Of a DNA stretch of 64,000 nucleotides, positions 2,481 to 13,800 are shown in pieces. A model generated the notes under the pieces. The model worked only from the letters and a program-made list of their open reading frames with translations. It was not told where the DNA came from and searched no databases. The stretch's first letter is position 1. Each line of letters starts with the position of its first letter. Source of the DNA: Bugula neritina (lineage: Eukaryota > Bryozoa > Gymnolaemata > Cheilostomatida > Bugulidae); assembly GCA_964035545.1 (NCBI GenBank), contig OZ037772.1:9087150-9151149 (forward strand). The letters are read 5' to 3'. The translations under genes and the position numbers were made by a program.

Positions 2481-3317
2481 TAACCTACCAATCACAAATA
2501 CACTAAACATGACAAGTCACACACAACACAGCTCACTATTGACTCACTTGTAACTACCGTGCTGATTCAATAGGTGGATTCCAGAAACTATTGCATAAAA
2601 AAAAGAAAATTTTATAGATCTACATAGTGCAGACAGTGGAAACTGGAAGAGGCATGCTAATCAACTTCAAATTTATCTGCAGTCTACAAATACGAACAAA
2701 ACAGTTGTACCCAACACACACCAAGCTGATAATAACATTATCTATCCTAAGTTGCGCTAAGTTGGTACAAAACATAACTCTCAAGTCTAAATTTGTGAGG
2801 AAAGAGTGCTATGTATTGAACTAGCCTTGTCAATACACTACATAGTATAACATACCACATTTTATGCACATAATCAGTAAATGTGATTACCTCTTATTCT
2901 AATGCTTATTTATTTAACCTCATTATATACAGTTTTGTCATACCAATATACATATGAGTTGCCATTCTGTCTCTTTTTATGTACATGTATTTTCAATGTC
3001 GGTTACTTGCTAGCTTCAATACAGTACAGTCATACATTCTACTCAACAGCCACTGTTGCTTATATGTGTGTAATCTTACTGTTTACTATCTTTTAACAAT
3101 ATTACAAGAAAGCAACATAAATTACGCTAATTGTATCAGCTCAGACTCAAACCAACTTTGTTTTATGCTCACGCACCAATCACACACAAGCATGTAACAG
3201 AGGTGCAAAAATTGGTAAAAATGAACATAATTGTCATGTAACTATTCACTGTATACATATTATAGTAATATGAGCCACGCCTCCTTCAATGTTATATGAA
3301 GGTAGTTACAGTAAAGC
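2481..3317. other. AT-rich spacer without recognised gene
   Basis: I see no coding exon here. I looked for the N-lobe exon of the first kinase domain of the gene that resumes at 10873 (glycine loop and VAxK lysine) and did not find it, so that exon lies left of the window or was lost. The short open frames have no recognisable motifs. Confidence 0.5.
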
Positions 3318-3321
3318 TTAA

Positions 3322-3500
3322 AGAATCCCTGACACACTTTACTTATATAGCATGAAAATATTCATCTATATCTTAGCTATCAATTGAGCATCCTTTTAAG
3401 GGTGGATGGCTATACTATTTCGTTTTATAACAAGATTAGTGCATGCATGTCCAGAAAACTTTCGGATTTCTAAGCTCTCAGTGCACACGTATTACGCCGG
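3322..3500 (+). repeat. Left terminal inverted repeat
   Basis: The first 60 bases match the reverse complement of 10680-10740 with two visible substitutions (tCC/cCC near the tip, and TATATC/TATGTC). The homology continues with indels through GTGCATGCATGTCC (3439-3452) to ACGTATTACrCCG (about 3488-3499). Outside it lies TTAA. Confidence 0.85.
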
Positions 3501-4057
3501 TTTCCGGTCTGCTTCGAGTCCTAGTTACTATATAACTAATAGTAATAATTGCATACTTTCACAGCGTTTTATTTTTAGCCACTGCAACACACAGATAAAT
3601 CACTAAACTGACATAAATTTTAAAACACAGAGTACAACTAAGGCTCAATGAAAAAAACAAATGATACCATTTTATTATTGATATTAAGAGCTAAAGTTAC
3701 TTCCGTTAGAAATTTTGAGCATCGGAAAAATGAAATAGCCTCACCCTCACGATGTAATTAGAACGGGTGGCTAAGTACGGCGATAACACGATATTGTTGA
3801 AAGAAATTAGCTAAATCCAACGAGTGGTAAACTTTTCTATAAAACATTACAAATAATTGCATATTCAATTATGTAACTTATTACGCTTCCAAATAGATTA
3901 TCATTACCGTAACCGGATATTACCAATATAACCTGTGCCTAGTAGTACTACTACTAGTAGTAGTCGCTCGCTATCTATATAAATTAGATTTCATATTGCC
4001 ATTGGACTCTAATGAACAAACTTATTACCTATATTACTAGTTACACTTACTGTCGAC

Positions 4058-7000
4058 ATGACTACACGAATGGCTTCAAGTTCTAAAGGCAAATGCAAAA
4101 GAAGAGTGTGTGAAGCTGCAATGTGTTCGTACAAGGAAAAACACATGTTTAAATGGCCTGCTGATACTGCGTGTGGTGAAAAATGGACCAAGTTTGTCAA
4201 TACGAAAAGAAAAAACTTTCTGCCTGATAACAACTCTCGTTTGTGTTTTCAGCATTTTGGTGATGAACAATTTACAAACATGGGCATGTATAAAGCAAAA
4301 CTCATTAACATGTAAGTGAATAACTCACTCAAACTCATAGTCATAGTGATACTGACTTAGTGATTGTGATATAATTAGACGATAGGCTAATGATAGTTTT
4401 TTTAATGTTGATTTTCAACAATAAGTATAACTATAACTATCAAGTATTACTACAAGTTGGTATAAGTCAATAGGATTGTCATGACCGTGTTGATTCAATT
4501 TCATGTGACTATGACATAAACTTGCAAGTACAAGTTTGCATTTATGATTTACACGATAACCATTATTGTAAGGAAATTCATTTATAATGGCGATAATATG
4601 AAAGACTTATGATTATCAGAATGAGAATGTGTCATAGTCACTTGGATACATACCATTAATATTATGATTTATACGCACTGATACTCATGCTATGAGTATG
4701 ATACTGGTAATGGTGCCCATCATCAATACCAGTAAAAATTAATGGTAAATATTGTTCACTTAGCTTATTGAAAAAATAAAAATTCATTGTCTTTGATTTA
4801 CTCTTTAGATTGCATTTAGAGAAAACAGCAGTCCCAACTATTCATTTAGTGGAAACTGAGGGTGCAACTGGATGCACTCCATTAACTCCTCGGAAACAAA
4901 GTCAGCAGGCGGCCACTATCACACCTAAAGAAGCTCGCTGGTTAAAAAGAACAGACCCTGGTTTTCTGTAAGGATTATAATATTGAAAATGCGATCTTGA
5001 GCAATAAAATTGAAATATGATATAGACAGCAATTGAGATTTTCTGCAGCTGTTTCAATAATACTTTTCCAGTTACCTTCATATATAATAATATTTTAGAG
5101 CTTTGCCAAGTCAAACAAAAAAACCAGCTCTCCATCGTAAGCCAGAAAAGAAGGGCCTACAGAAAGGAATAGGACACAACAAATATGTGCAAACACCTAA
5201 AAGGACGCAGAAAAAGATTAGAAGCAAAGCTGTTCAATGCTGGTATATAGAAATATGGCGAAATAGTATTGTTCACTTAGCTCAAAAACTGAATTCATAG
5301 CTTTTCTCCATATTTATTTTTATTTAAAATGCATGTTCTAATGCAACAAAAAACCAAATATTTTTGTGTAATGGAAATAATATTTTTAATTTTCCACCTC
5401 AAGGTGTGTCAAAAATAAATTTGGACAATATATCTACTTGTAGTCTCAGTTTCCATTGAAATGTAGATATTCGTTTTCACTGTAGAGCAGCTGTATGTTT
5501 GGTTTTGTTGGTACTTTATTAGAGCCATAAATAGCAATGTGAAAACAATAAATAGCAATAAATAAAACAATATATTGGTAAAAATATGTAAAAAGTTATA
5601 CTATGTCACAAAGTTTCATAAAAACAATATTGTTATATTATATTATATTACATTGCATAAGATATTCTAGTGTACTAGGAATATTGCAATACCTGATTGC
5701 TCTACATAGCTTCTACAAAGTGGCTGCAGCACCTGACCTACCATGGCTAGGTCAAGTCTAGAACAATCATGGTGTGCAGCTTCCAAGCATTGATACATGG
5801 CTAAATTAAATTGTTAGCAGGGTTTTTATTTACTAATACACATTCATAACAGTAACTTTAACAAAACAAATGTTAATGGTAATAAGGTTAAAAAGATATT
5901 TTCTGGGCCGTTAATTAAATACATTTCATTACTAAATTACTGATTATGTGCACAAACAGGATGTATTACAAAAGGGACATTCTGACTGTTACATGAATGA
6001 ATATGAAATCTTGATAAGGTTTATAAAGTGTTACTAGTACGACTTTGTAAGGACTATAAGAAGATATGTAGTAGCAAATGTTCTGCTGCATGCATATATT
6101 TTATTAGCTTGGCCCCCATTAATGTACTAGAGGAATCTACAACTCCACCAGAAAGATGCGTTACAGATTATGAAAGCTCAGATACCGAATATGCTGCAGA
6201 AAGTGATTTTGAATGGGCACCGGAGGAAGAAGATGAGATAGAGTATTTAAATTCAGCAGCTTCCAATGTAGATGAAGAGCAGAGGTTTGAAAAGAATGCA
6301 CAATTTTGCAATAAGGCAATATCTTGAAAACTTGCAATGCTTAGTTTTTGTCTATCTAATTAAGGATATACTTTATGATTTTATGTAGGTTGGACGTAAT
6401 GTCTCCTGTAAGTATTAGTGATAAACTTTATGTGGTTTGTGTGCTCATCTTACAGCTTTGTACCAACAGCTTTGAAAATTAATTGGTTTTATGTACCTGT
6501 ACCTTACTTCTCATTTCCCCACATTTCTTTTATTTGCACTCTAACCAACTGCTTCCCTGTCTACTTAGGCTAGTATGGTTTATTTCCACCTATTAATTGC
6601 ATTTTGAAATTATTGTTAAATTTGCTGCTTTTGCAGGAAAGGTCAGTTTCATGAGCCAAAATATATTGTGAGTCACAGCAACCTCGTGAAACTCATGCGA
6701 AGATGTAATGTATGTGGCGGTGAGGCTACTGGTCGTAAATCTGCAGTACATGGTGCACATGCACAATTATAAATATTTCTCAACTTGAAAATCTGGTATA
6801 TTGCATAATATTGCAAATATCATTTGAATTTATCTACAATTTGGCATTTTGTTCCGTTACTAGAACATAACATCTTCTAATGCAATGGAGCTTGAGGGCT
6901 TAATACGATGCAGAAATCAGCTAGAGAAATTAGGGATACCAGTGATAAGTCTAACTACAGATAGACATGTACAAATCCAAGCCTACATGAGAACCAAATG

Positions 7001-8221
7001 GCCAAATGTTCAACATTTTTTCGATACTTGGCACATTTGTAAAGGCAAGTTGTTTGTTACCCATGTTGTTAGTCAATTTTCTTTACTGTATCTTGCAATA
7101 TTTTGTGACATAACATTTAAGTGGTGATATTTACTATTTCATGTACCATGTTTCAGGATTAAAGAAAAAACTTGCTGCTTTGTCATTGAAAAATAAGCAC
7201 AGAGTATTGGCAAAATGGATTAGGAGCATATGCAACCATATGTATTGGGTTGTTGACACAACTGAGCACCAGACTAAACTCAGGGAAAGTAAATGGTTAT
7301 CTATTATCGACCATATTGCTAATGAGCACACATTTGACTACCCAGAATTTTCAAGCTGTGAGCATGGCCTGCTTGACAACTTGGTTGACGATGATGGGAG
7401 ACAAATTCAACGAATTTGGATCAATAAAGGTTGTAAAATATTACCTTTCTTATTCTGAAATTAGCCACTTTGAAAATTGTAGTGCAACAATAGAAATATT
7501 TTAGATACGGAAACACACCGAGAATTGAAGCCACTTCTCAGCAATAAAATCTTGCTGAAAGCTATCGAGCGAGCTGGCAAAGAAAACACTTCTGAACTGG
7601 AGTCCTTTCATGCTTTGTTAAACAGCAACGCACCAAAGATGTTGTCTTTCAGTTACAGTGGAATGCTCACCAGGTTAGTGGGTTGCCTTAATTAGTCGAG
7701 AAACTATTATATATGTTGGGGTTTAAGATTTTGAAGGTTTCGAGATAGAATAATTGGTATAACATTTATTTGTATTTGCAGAACACAAATATCTATCTTA
7801 CATCAAAATGAAAACTGCATGCGGCCAATTCATTGCAACAAAGATGGAACAATTCAATACAAAATCATCAGAAAAAAAGCTAACAACTTGAGAGCTACTG
7901 TATCTAATTTAAGAGTTGCACCTACATTTCGTAAGTATCATGCAATACCGTTCACACTGGTTACCATAAACTGACTTGAAATTGGCTCTTGGCCACCCAA
8001 ACCTTTAATAGAAATTTACTTCATGTGTAGTATACATACTTTTAGAGTACACTGAAGATTTATTGAGATGTCTTGAGAAGCACATAATTGATAGAACTAG
8101 ACCATCAAGTGGCGATGCTGAACTGCCAACGTTGGGCAGTAAGGTAGAAGAAGTCAGTAAAAGTGACTTGATTGCTGGGATCAGCAGAAGAGGGCTGAAA
8201 ACTAAACCACACTATCTGTAG
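4058..8221 (+). CDS. THAP-domain transposase of the Kolobok-like element (internally deleted)
   Basis: Exons read as 4058-4311, 4809-4967, 5099-5242, about 6132-6300, about 6637-6764, 6866-7033, 7157-7429, 7505-7673, 7782-7930 and 8046-8221. The N-terminus is a THAP zinc finger: CEAAMC, a conserved Trp (EKWTKF), CFQHF, and the closing AVPTI motif at the start of exon 2. A basic region and an acidic region follow. Exon 5 ends with a Cys pair (CNVCGG). Later exons carry SNAMELEG, TTDRHVQI, FDTWHICKGLKKKL and NHMYWVVD, which look like the second half of a Kolobok-type DDE transposase. The segment expected between CNVCGG and SNAMELEG, which should hold the first catalytic Asp, is absent and replaced by 101 bp of filler. 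The intron at 7034 uses GC-AG. The junction between exons 3 and 4 does not keep phase in my reading, so an exon may be missing or wrong there. Confidence 0.75.
6765..6865 (+). repeat. 101-bp filler, inverted copy of DNA flanking the transposon
   Basis: This segment is, base for base as I read it, the reverse complement of 10748-10848, which starts four bases outside the right TTAA. It sits inside the transposase gene exactly where a large coding segment is missing. It ends in TTACTAG and could act as a splice acceptor for the exon starting AACATAAC. Confidence 0.85.
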
Positions 8222-8572
8222 TTTGAAACATCATGAATACTAATTATCATAGTTTTCTGCTTACATCAAAACTAAGTAGAGTGAAGTAAATTCTATTTGT
8301 TGAATCAAAATTCAAGCATTGTAGAATATGATCTTAGAGTCACTTGAAAAGTTCAGCGCAAAAATAGTCACCATATTGAAGTATATTCACCATTATTGCA
8401 ACTCAAACTCAACGGTAAATTAATTTCAAAGGTCAGGGAGATTGCAAATAATGAGGTTTATTCTCATAGTAAGCTGTACACACTACAAGAGGCAGTAGCA
8501 ACTGACTGCTACTAAAAATCACCAGAGTGTTAATGTTCATAAATCTTCATTGTACACGAATTTGCTGAACAT
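8222..8572. other. Spacer between the two convergent transposon genes
   Basis: AT-rich sequence between the stop of the transposase gene and the stop of the minus-strand gene. I see no further coding exon. Confidence 0.5.
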
Positions 8573-10282
8573 TCATTCAGCAAATTCTTCCTCATCACCA
8601 GTTGGGGGGAATGTAGCTTGCACCCAATCATATAAGCAAGCTGGCAAAGGGCGTCTCTCACCTTTTTAATATCTGGAAACAGCCAGAACACCAAAAACCG
8701 GTAGCTGCAGAATCTTTTTTTAGTGTTGAGAGAATGGGCCTTCTCATCAAACAAATCATCTACCAAAATAAATGATTGGCTAAATAATCAAGTAAGACTA
8801 TCTAGAAAAGCTAACAATGACAGTTACTGATATACAGTAGCAATTGACTAACCATGATATCTCAGGTAGCTGCTGTATGCAACTTCTAATACAGCTGGTT
8901 GCGTCAATTGCTGTACTCCCGGGTGCTGTGTTATACATTCCATGCTGCTATCTAATCGAAGGTTTGCAGCATGATCACGGCAACAAACAGACTGTTCCAC
9001 TGTAGGCTGATTTTGGCAGCGGTGGCAAGTGCACCACTCCGTGGCTGGCCTTATATTTTTCTACAAAACAAACAAGCTTTTCTAAAAACGTTATTACCAG
9101 TATCATCCACATTAAGTCCATTAATTACTGTGTCTAAATTTGTTTCCTGTATTTTTCTTTGTATTGAAAATTGAGTCCAATGAGGCTGAAGTTTGAAAAT
9201 ACTTTAAAATCATGGGTTTTAAAATATTCCAAGTTTGCATTACTGTTCAAACTATTTTTATATTTATAGTTGAAAATTAATTAGATTTTTTATATTAAAA
9301 CAAACTCATAATTTTTGCTATGAAATAAACTAATTTTCAGAAATTTTAAATATTTTATTGTTGTTAGTACTATATGTTATACTATAAAAGCAGAAATTCA
9401 GAGAAATAGGGGGCTTAGAAATAAAATACTAAATGCTATCATCGTGAATGCAAGTTTGACATGATTATGCATGTGATTAACTTATTTTGTTAAGGATCGG
9501 TATAACCACAATTACAATAAAAGTGAATAATAATTATCATTATTATGCATTTATAAAAATACAGTCTTTCCCTTGACTTAAACTATCAGGTAAATCTAAC
9601 TACAAATAATTAATACTAATACCTGTATTGGTAGTAGTAATAACAAAATTAGTATTGATCAAATATTTAATTACTTGACTGGAATTTGTAATCATTAAAT
9701 TTAATGATTATCACTTTATTATTAATAATATTATATAAACCGATAGCAATCATCAAATATTTAGCTTGTAATTTGATATCATGCTTGCTAGTGAGTGAGT
9801 GATGCTTGCTCTAAAGCTTTAGTAGCACAAAACTCAGCTATATTAACTAATTAAGCCAGGATCAATACGAGCATTGGCATTGAGCATTGGAATTACGATT
9901 ACAAAATGAAAATGAAATATTATAATTATAATAATTTATAACTTATAGTTATACTAGCTTATACTTATAACTTAAAGTTAAAGTATTACTATTAGTATTA
10001 GTATTAGTATTACGGTATTAGTAACACTATAGTTTATAAAATTAAATCGTACTGATACTGTAAAATTATAAATATTATCACCTGTTGCTCATCAGTAACA
10101 GTAAAATCCTTGTCATGACTATCAGTATCATCTCCATTTTCATCTTGATACGTAAACGGCTCAAACTGATAGCCCATTACTTCAGAAATCTCAGTGACAG
10201 CGTGAGTGTGATTGTCATAGTCATACTCATTGCGATTCTCACTGTGCTCTAAGTATTCTTCGTCAGAGCCAGATATGTTCAT
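8573..10282 (-). CDS. P2X7 ballast-like zinc-binding domain protein carried by the transposon
   Basis: Three exons in phase: 10082-10282 (ATG at 10282), 8853-9060 and 8573-8759. Exon 1 is acidic and low-complexity. Exon 2 has the Cys/His pattern WCTCHRC, VCCRDH and MECITQHPGV, followed by AVLEVAYSSYLRYH. Exon 3 has RFCSYRFLVFWLFPDI; then, after a one-base deletion in an A/G run near 8663, a second frame reads RRPLPACLYDWVQATFP and stops at 8573. This order matches the C-terminal cytoplasmic ballast domain of vertebrate P2X7 (a zinc cluster fold) and the many stand-alone invertebrate proteins related to it. No channel segment is present. The gene is convergent with the transposase gene and lies wholly inside the TIRs. 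As it stands the frameshift changes the last ~30 residues, so it is damaged or contains a sequence error. Its function is unknown; the domain may bind nucleic acid or nucleotide. Confidence 0.8.
9061..10081 (-). other. Intron of the ballast-like gene
   Basis: A GT-AG intron on the minus strand, strongly AT-rich, with short repeats of AGTATT-type units near 9985-10025. I see nothing coding in it. Confidence 0.55.
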
Positions 10283-10561
10283 ATTGATATCGTATTTATG
10301 TTATTTCTGTATTAGGTTTATCTTTATCACAATTACACTGCACAGACTCGGACACGGTAAGTTGGTAGCTATGTATTTATTGCCGCGAAATTTGTTCATG
10401 AAATAAAACCTAAATTCCACAAAAAAACACTAATTGGGGGGCTAGACAGACATCCGATAAATTAAAAATGCTAAAACTAAGGTTACATGCAACGGAAAAT
10501 ATAGCCTATACTTATTTTCCGAATGTCTTACAGGCGGCGTTTCCATCTATTTCTTGCAACT
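10283..10561. other. Upstream region of the ballast-like gene
   Basis: Sequence between the ATG at 10282 and the right TIR. It would contain the promoter of the minus-strand gene; I see no clear TATA motif that I would defend. Confidence 0.35.
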
Positions 10562-10740
10562 GCGGTGTAATACGTCACAGAAGGGCGAAAAAAATTCTCG
10601 AAGTTTTTTGGACATGCATGCACTAAAATTGTTATAAAACAAAATTGTTTAGACCTGAAACCCTAAAAGAGTGTTAAAATGATAGCTAAGACATAGATGA
10701 ATATTTTCATGCTATATAAGTAAAGTGTGTCAGGAATTCT
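10562..10740 (-). repeat. Right terminal inverted repeat
   Basis: This is the reverse complement of the left TIR, most conserved in the outer 60 bp and followed by TTAA at 10741. Both arms share the palindromic GCATGCATGC-type motif near their inner part. Confidence 0.85.
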
Positions 10741-10747
10741 TTAAGCC

Positions 10748-10848
10748 TTCTAGTAACGGAACAAAATGCCAAATTGTAGATAAATTCAAATGATATTTGC
10801 AATATTATGCAATATACCAGATTTTCAAGTTGAGAAATATTTATAATT
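10748..10848 (+). repeat. Flanking source of the filler DNA
   Basis: Host DNA immediately right of the Kolobok-like element and just upstream of the kinase exon at 10873. An inverted, apparently identical copy lies at 6765-6865 within the element. Confidence 0.8.
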
Positions 10849-10872
10849 ATAATAATTATGCTCTTTTTACAG

Positions 10873-13800
10873 CTAATTAAACAACTGCAAAAAGAAACAT
10901 CTGTGATAGCAAAATTAAACCACAAAAGGGTAGTGCAGTTCATTAGAGAGGAAATGGACCTTAGGGCTTTTTGCCTGTATATGGAGTTTATGCCAAACGG
11001 CTCAGTTTCTGCCAGGATAGAGAAAACTGGTCCATTCCCTGAAGCAACAACAAAAAAGTGCGCATTTCAAATTCTGGAAGGCCTAGAATATCTTCATGAC
11101 AGGAGGATAATTCACAGGCATTTAAAAGGTAGACTCAGGTCTCAAACATTACAGTTATTTGACTTAAATTGGTTTGACTGAATTATGTGTCTTTTGCAGT
11201 TCATTATATGCTAAAGTGAAGCAGTTTCTATTAACTTTGAGCAACTTCTGTGCAACTGCTTCATCATTTTCAGGCAGAGAATAACTTTAAAATAAATCGC
11301 ATATAAATAAAAAACTTCAAAGTTACCAAACAATAATACTATAATGAGGGTAATTTCAGGATCCAACATCCTATTTGATAAAAATGATGATGTAAAACTG
11401 GCTGACTTTGGGAAATCTAAAGACATGAATTGTTTCAACACAATACTTGGTGGTGGCAACACAGGTGGTGTCGGGACAGCTTATTGGATGGCTCCTGAAG
11501 TCATAGAGGCAAAAAATTATGGAAGAAAGGCAGATATTTGGTAATTTGGCTGTTATAAGTATATTAATAGTAACTGAACTTTATAGTTGAAAGATATAAA
11601 AACTGTAGGCTATATAGAAAATATAGCGCAGTCTTGTTTTTCCAACGAATATAATTTTCTATGAAATTTCCATTTCTTAAGAAGCAAATTATATATAGCT
11701 CCTAAATCCACAGTTTATTTGAAGACTAGAAAATATCTTTCTAATAAAAAGTCTCCTTTTCAATTAGTTGGAAGCAGCTTAAAATATAGCTAGTTCTTTT
11801 GAAAATAATTAGTGTTTTCAATTATACATATAAACAAATTTAGCTTACCGTAAAGCAAAGCTTTGATAAAATTTGTACAAAATAGCCGTAACATTATTGT
11901 TATGATCATGCTTGACTTTGAAAAATAGTTGAAGCCTTAGTGACTAGGGCATTTCCGCAATTTATTAAAGACTTCAGTGCCTTACAAACTGTTTGCTTAA
12001 CTGACTATCCATTACAATCATACTGTGCCAGTATTCACCTGCGCGTGAGTGTGTGTGTGTTTGTGTGTGGTGTATAGTGCATGTTCTTTCTTCACTCATT
12101 GTTCTAGAGTGTCAGAGTGAAGGGAATATACTTACTAGATCAATTTTAATTTTATTTGCAATGAAAAGTTTAGCTGAATTTTACAATTTCATACTTTCAT
12201 AAGATACTGAATTTTCTGCTGCGTATCACATTTTAAAAAATTTATTGAAACAAACATTAAATTTCGACTAATTATTAAATATGCCTTTGCTATCTTATTC
12301 CAATAACATCATTAACTCCATTTTAGATGGTTCTAAATTTGAGCCCTGAGATTAAGTTTCAGTTACATCTGATGTGCTGGCCAAACAAACTATACTTACA
12401 TTTTTTACTTCAATTGCACAAAAATCTACAGAACATTGTCAGTTAGCAAAACTACTTTATCTATACCTGCAGGAGTTTAGGAGCTACTACAGTTGAGATG
12501 TTGACAGGACACCCGCCCTGGCACCAATGCGGCATATATGAGGCTATCACTAAAATAGCAAATTTGAAAACTGCTGATTACCAGCTAAGCCCAACTATCA
12601 GTGATGAAGCTCAGGAATTTTTGGATAAGGCTTTTACCCCAGACGATGAGCAGCGACCTAATTGCGAAGAGTTGCTGACACATAAATGGTTTGTAGCAAA
12701 ACCAACACAAGGTAAGTTTATCATGAAATAAATCTCTTCCAATTATTCGTGTAGGCACACATGAAATAGTGTTGTATAGACTTTTGAATAAATCTATTTC
12801 TTTCAAATGCTGATCCCTTTCAATGGCAGTTTAAATGTTATTTTCTTGTTGTTGCACTAATTGTTTATACCAATAAAACAAATGTGCTTGAGAATTTCAT
12901 AGTAAAAGAAAAACAAATATTTTTAATGTTTAGTAAAAGAATTATTGAGAAAATAAGATATTGCTGTTGATAAATATCAACACTTTCGTTATAGAATAAT
13001 AATAGTCAACAATCTTATTGGTGTTGTAATATTATATATAATATACACACGCACACACCAATTAAGAGAAACATACCGTTTGTAATTATAGACCGGATTG
13101 CAAAACAAGGCATAAATTCTGCAAAGAACTTGCTAATTAACTTAAATACATTTAATAGTGTAACTAATTGTAATTCTTGATAGAAACTGTGACTGATGAA
13201 CCTTTAAGCTCTACGTCGGTGGAGTTCGAAAATCAAAACATTGCCGTGTCTCGTAAGTTAACATCATTTGTTAAAATACTTCACATAACTTAATGAATGG
13301 TTTAGAGGAATTGTTACACAGGTTTAATAAGTGTTATATCACTAAAATACTATATTTAGTATTTAAGAATATATGCTCAATTTTTATAGCTGCACATGTT
13401 TTATAATTTCTGGATCGTCAAAAATAAAGAGTGTATTGATCATAAAAATACTTTTGCGCTGAAACAAGGTTTATATCTTATTCTAAATATTATAATGAAG
13501 GCTAACTAGATGTTTGTAATACTTTTCTCTATATATCTAATTGCTATTTTTAAGCACCTGTGGCTTTAGAACAACCAAAAAATTTGGCGCAAGAGATGGA
13601 ATTGCTTGAAATGAAAGGCAGTTGGAGGCTTGTTGGCAAAGGATCATTTGGCAGTGTGTTTTCTTTTCAAGATGGATTAACTGGTGTAAAATATTCTGTA
13701 AAGGTAGTTAAAATATCTCCAACAAAGAACAAAGAAAAACATATAAGACATGTAAGTTCAGAACCATAAATTTAAAAAGGCAGAAAATATGCTGTACTAG

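Follow-up and report, generated by a model that had tools for sequence, protein, structure and literature searches.

How a gene for a relative of the cytoplasmic zinc domain of P2X7 comes to stand inside a DNA transposon, and why it should persist when the transposase has gone, is the question raised by a locus in the bryozoan Bugula neritina. The window, the whole 64,000-nucleotide stretch of DNA analysed here, was described in a first-pass annotation as holding TTAA-flanked terminal inverted repeats (TIRs) that enclose a THAP transposase gene and, convergent to it, a three-exon gene. We confirm this arrangement at 3322-10740. Most probably we are dealing with a Kol0-group Kolobok DNA transposon, now defective, which bears a putative accessory gene, KolX, and has undergone an interrupted break repair.

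The annotation further knew of no description of a transposon paired with a P2X7 ballast domain; that the pairing is undescribed can be ruled out. According to Kojima & Bao (2022, PMC9587614), KolX is the second protein of the Kol0 lineage of Kolobok transposons, whose type is Kolobok-1_XT and whose hosts include vertebrates, annelids, cnidarians, and sponges. Those authors describe KolX as similar to P2X7 residues 476-595 and as having the ballast fold. In their view a P2X4-like gene fused with KolX to give P2X7, and Nanor is likely a domesticated KolX. The suggestion that a transposon-borne ballast domain joined a P2X gene is therefore sound and plausible, and already contained in that paper. 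The supposition that the gene is regular cargo of such elements holds in its first part, KolX being the Kol0 second protein (PMC9587614); the sense of a captured gene that "cargo" implies does not. Stand-alone ballast domains in animal proteins, including one from a sponge, were reported by Rump et al. (2020, PMC7016195), whose main text does not contain the string "transpos". New here are the finding that most of the full-size relatives found kept KolX after loss of the transposase, and an account of how the window copy broke.

Bounds and setting of the element

3322-10740, no strand: KolX-bearing Kolobok element, 7419 bp, termini AG...CT
3318-3321, no strand: left TTAA target-site duplication
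10741-10744, no strand: right TTAA target-site duplication
3322-3461, plus strand: left TIR, part of the outer inverted repeat
10601-10740, minus strand: right TIR, part of the outer inverted repeat

The TIRs are imperfect and belong to an outer inverted repeat (3305-3461 and 10601-10757) of 157 nt with 85% complementarity. Two features of Kolobok elements are present, the TTAA target-site duplication and 5'-RR...YY-3' termini, here AG...CT. At the loci examined (L001-L060), TTAA followed by AG was found at all 37 distinct family ends, and comparison of their 100-bp flanks with each other yielded no matches at E 1e-5, which together indicate that the family copies are separate insertions. An exon encoding a protein kinase domain (10834-11181; Pfam Pkinase, E 2.5e-18) directly adjoins the element, which probably inserted within an intron of a kinase gene.

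The transposase gene and its lesion

4058-4311, plus strand: exon 1, THAP domain (Pfam PF05485, E 8.2e-6, 26.9 bits, cut-off 23.9)
4809-4967, plus strand: exon 2, from the open reading frame and splice borders by eye, retained in deletion derivatives
5099-5243, plus strand: exon 3, from the open reading frame and splice borders by eye, retained in deletion derivatives
about 6120-6290, plus strand: acidic exon before the lesion, borders approximate, by eye
about 6637-6764, plus strand: exon with CNVCGG...GAHAQ before the lesion, borders approximate, by eye
6765-6865, minus strand: 101-bp filler, an inverted 100% copy of the right flank 10748-10848
6866-8221, plus strand: putative DDE core exons with TTDRH (second D), DTWH (DxxH), and TSELESFH (E)

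The plus-strand exons span 4058 to 8221. By motif, the DDD/E and C/DxxH signature is represented in the window core by TTDRH, DTWH, and TSELE, while the first D occurs only in a relative on C6, which also matches the GAHAQ-type segment. Against the Pfam Mutator profile (PF20700), the window core scored weakly (20.5 bits, below the cut-off of 26.5). We would assign the element to Kol0 from KolX and the ends; Pfam places its core among Mutator-like transposases only weakly and below the cut-off. The presence of a THAP transposase gene is borne out by PF05485, but its intactness is not, as the block holding the first catalytic Asp has been replaced: the filler stands where the C6 relative has a transposase block with GDGRCDSPG, which contains this residue.

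A search of the 215.8-Mb genome with the filler sequence found two copies, both at the window locus, and its source lies just outside the right TTAA. Since the sequence was found at this locus only, the patch was most likely made there after insertion, and interrupted repair of a break appears to be its simplest reading. A perfect inverted duplication of 101 bp is a possible scar of interrupted gap repair.

The window's transposase core is the only close one found in the genome; other core matches are 35-79% identical and fragmentary. The same genome-wide core search found no intact autonomous copy of the close family.

KolX and the ballast domain

10082-10282, minus strand: KolX exon 1, acidic N-terminus, with a copy-specific 6-bp insertion
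8853-9060, minus strand: KolX exon 2, WCTCHRC...VCCRDH...CITQHPG
8573-8759, minus strand: KolX exon 3, one base shorter than the 188-nt copies, frameshifted

The three minus-strand exons have GT/AG borders and join in phase. Read up to its frameshift, the spliced window KolX matched the Pfam profile P2RX7_C (PF20478) with E 7.4e-11 and 42.8 bits (cut-off 23.5), and a sister copy lacking the frameshift reached E 6.9e-14 and 52.6 bits. The sister-copy protein also aligned with P2X7 chains of known structure, at residues 470-586 (8tr5_A, E 5.8e-4; 6u9v_A, E 6.6e-4). Cys positions common to KolX and P2X7 are those of WCxCxxC, CC (this pair aligned by eye), CIT, FCxYR/HCxYR, and PAC/PSC. The proposed kinship with the cytoplasmic zinc domain of P2X7 is thereby upheld. 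The Cys/His pattern had been read through to PACLYDW; the domain stands, but in the window PACLYDW lies one frame off FxxWLF because exon 3 has lost one base (187 versus 188 nt). With both of its genes damaged, the window element is dead.

A genome-wide search with the PF20478 profile gave no match, and its control was silent too (0 of 14 genomes), probably because exons were matched singly: exon 2 alone scored 16.9 bits, below the cut-off of 23.5. KolX copies were found by a protein search of the genome instead. A search for protein homologues returned only two short fragments. The family frame was open through all three exons in 13 of 23 copy rows, the remaining 10 comprising broken copies, diverged copies, and copies only partly covered by the retrieved locus. 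All 13 open copies read past the window TGA at 8573, and 12 of them end in MFSKFVYNEDL near 8537; one of the 13, C1:13119077, shows AT for GT at the first KolX donor in the alignment.

In two more distant families (C5:13.49 Mb and C6:5.89 Mb), KolX lies on the strand opposite to the transposase core, in the same convergent order. Their identity is 56-57% in KolX exon 2, 63-70% in exon 3, and 61% in the best segment of the core, some exons of which contain stops. No TIRs of the C5 family were found in the first 3.5 kb of each side, and the search for those of the C6 family gave no settled pair.

Copies and deletion derivatives in the genome

Across the whole genome, a TIR pattern allowing up to 3 mismatches, and thus missing ends with more, found 56 ends, the reversed control none. 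Opposite-facing ends within 13 kb were paired, which joined 48 of the 56 into 24 elements and left 8 unpaired. This count is a better sample than an earlier candidate listing, of which only 40 of 272 had been scored. A close KolX exon 2 was present in 22 of the 24 paired elements; the two without KolX are about 1.2 and 0.4 kb long and both deleted across the element centre. Of the two genes whose recurrence between such TIRs the annotation asked about, KolX recurs in most paired elements, and the close transposase core was found in the window only. A regular absence of the minus-strand gene from other copies, which the annotation named as refuting, was not observed.

The transposase core is absent from 21 of the 22 KolX-bearing elements. 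These are internal-deletion derivatives in eight junction classes, given in window coordinates:

5708|8267: 8 copies
5471|8318: 7 copies
5861|8447: 1 copy
5650|8513: 1 copy
5627|8127: 1 copy
6051|8476: 1 copy, with a second deletion
6120|8574: 1 copy
6107|8540: 1 copy

By coordinates, all eight classes keep THAP exons 1-3 and the KolX ballast domain. As intact KolX runs to about 8537, class 6120|8574 cuts its last codons; class 6107|8540 touches the KolX end, and the other six spare the gene whole. The KolX frame is broken in the copies of both 6120|8574 and 6107|8540. On the tree, class 5650|8513 falls within the 5708|8267 copies, and the classes are thus not all independent. The eight deletions are centred close to the middle of the element (7031), none of their midpoints being more than about 320 bp away from it. 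Six of the eight junctions have an overlap of 1-4 bp between the arms, and unaligned bases stand between them at 5650|8513 (2) and 6107|8540 (55). In 6 of 22 rows, THAP exon 1 contains a frameshift or a stop. The loci retrieved for C5:11703749 and C1:34838217 did not reach KolX exon 1; as this exon matches inside the TIRs of both elements, several kb away, these two copies hold insertions.

Three copies of class 5708|8267 (C1:28249130, C5:14356904, and C4:6913368) have a common 2-bp deletion in KolX exon 3. This reflects either the movement of an element whose KolX was already broken or repeated slippage at a GA repeat.

Between family copies, 27 of 68 distinct insertion differences measure exactly 6 bp, the window having an example near 10120-10130. 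Five of the 27 are complex and 22 simple, and 21 of the simple ones duplicate 4 bp or more, against an expectation of 2.6% if insertions were random. Eleven of the 22 have a duplication of 4-5 bp, corresponding to a 4-bp repeat and a 2-bp spacer that by eye is often AG; in sequence these look like excision footprints of another element with a 4-bp target duplication. Another 10 are whole hexamer repeats, which could come from slippage.

Variation and selection in KolX

Rows C7:9001561, C1:34838217, and C1:34835002 were dropped from the variant counts, and C5:11703749 additionally from the tree. All variants in KolX among 21 sequences taken together look neutral (29 nonsynonymous, 11 synonymous, and 1 stop versus expected proportions of 0.694, 0.262, and 0.044), as expected for changes arising after insertion. 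Variants common to at least two copies occurred in KolX exons at about one third of their frequency in neighbouring noncoding DNA (uncorrected p 0.007-0.03), with 5 at 591 sites versus 39 at 1390 sites of the right-hand noncoding DNA (Fisher p 0.007). Singletons were alike in both (36/591 and 90/1390), and THAP exons had no deficit of common variants (14/558 versus 45/1579 noncoding). The ratio of common to single variants differed between KolX and THAP (p 0.036). With changes placed on trees, KolX differed from noncoding DNA (p 0.02-0.03), and the comparison with THAP was not significant (p 0.12-0.19).

By segment, common variants numbered 1/195 in exon 1, 0/208 in exon 2, and 4/188 in exon 3, the last not low, while one third of the intron was unusually rich in them (16/320). 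Of the common exon variants, 3 change the protein and 2 are silent, small numbers both. The deficit is only suggestive of selection. Over a longer time, the sister-copy KolX compared with that of the C6 family across 108 codons (pN 0.19, pS 0.97, the latter saturated) has clearly been under purifying selection.

Discussion

The window element agrees with the published description of Kol0 Kolobok transposons in its TTAA duplication, 5'-RR...YY-3' termini, and separate KolX with a P2X7 ballast domain, and probably, judging by motifs, in a transposase of DDE type, and its family, likened to Kol0 on that description, may already be listed in Repbase. It is unlike them in that 21 of the 22 KolX-bearing paired-TIR elements of B. 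neritina lack the transposase core. KolX in turn resembles the C-terminal ballast of P2X7 and the nanor/ZCD proteins (PMC7016195) in its Cys positions and its match to P2RX7_C; unlike P2X7, it has no P2X channel part and is encoded inside a transposon.

We propose that the element inserted at a TTAA beside a protein-kinase exon, the transposase of an intact relative presumably cutting at the TIRs and joining them into this site. KolX, a predicted zinc-ballast protein, would be a putative accessory factor of the element and not a chance passenger. A later break in the window copy, perhaps an excision repaired from the sister chromatid, may have led to an interrupted repair in which 101 bp of adjacent host flank were patched inversely into the transposase gene.

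Why KolX outlasted the transposase can be explained in more than one way. We consider it fairly probable that its survival is a by-product of interrupted gap repair that removes the middle of the element, where the convergent 3' ends meet. With the deletions centred near the midpoint, repair that acts symmetrically may suffice to account for them, and the short overlaps at six of the eight junctions and the two short KolX-less elements, also deleted across the centre, point the same way. What this explanation leaves unaccounted for is the shortage of common variants in KolX exons, if that shortage is real. It would find its place if KolX helped its own copy, as a cis-preferring helper, an anti-silencing factor, or a regulator, and KolX-sparing deletions were amplified by transposase made elsewhere. 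This we regard as a tentative and on the whole unlikely explanation, although all eight junction classes in the 21 derivatives spare the ballast domain. Under random placement of deletions, six classes would all fall short of the KolX stop at 8537 with a probability of 0.025, or 0.05 for five classes taken as independent; with the window's premature end at 8573 the probability becomes 0.009 for eight and 0.03 for six. The deficit relative to noncoding DNA, coupled with equal singletons and no deficit in THAP, argues for such a helper, as do the common-to-single ratio of KolX versus THAP and the tree-based comparison with noncoding DNA. However, the p values are uncorrected and rest on small counts. 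Part of the excess in noncoding DNA comes from a single intron segment, exon 3 by itself shows no deficit, the full set of variants looks neutral, and on trees KolX does not differ significantly from THAP. Recombination between copies is likely, the deletions of classes 6120|8574 and 6107|8540 extend to the final codons of KolX or its stop, in copies whose KolX frame is broken, and the 2-bp deletion common to three copies means that a broken KolX may have spread. That a transposase-less Kolobok lineage propagates in which selection keeps KolX working in the moving copies seems to us rather improbable.

A single capture of a host ballast-domain gene by this family is very improbable. Stand-alone animal proteins with the domain do exist (PMC7016195), but families sharing no more than about 56-70% identity have the two genes in this convergent order as well, and the published account gives KolX as the Kol0 second protein in several animal phyla (PMC9587614).

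Internal-deletion derivatives of the P element of the KP type keep THAP exons and ends and lose the catalytic core. The derivatives described here do likewise, and differ in that the gene open in most copies is KolX, not THAP. A THAP repressor of the KP kind is unsupported, since THAP exon 1 is broken in those 6 of 22 rows. For derivatives that keep the accessory gene only, the portions of the literature covered offered general analogues alone, the plant anti-silencing VANC proteins.

Our whole-genome search confirms the P2X7 ballast domain as a regular transposon protein. Because KolX outlives the transposase, its role becomes testable: whether it acts in cis, and whether it is needed for mobility. 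If selection does keep KolX working in moving copies, KolX would be a selfish helper of the very copy that encodes it, and we would have an initial clue to the function of the ballast domain before P2X7 acquired it.
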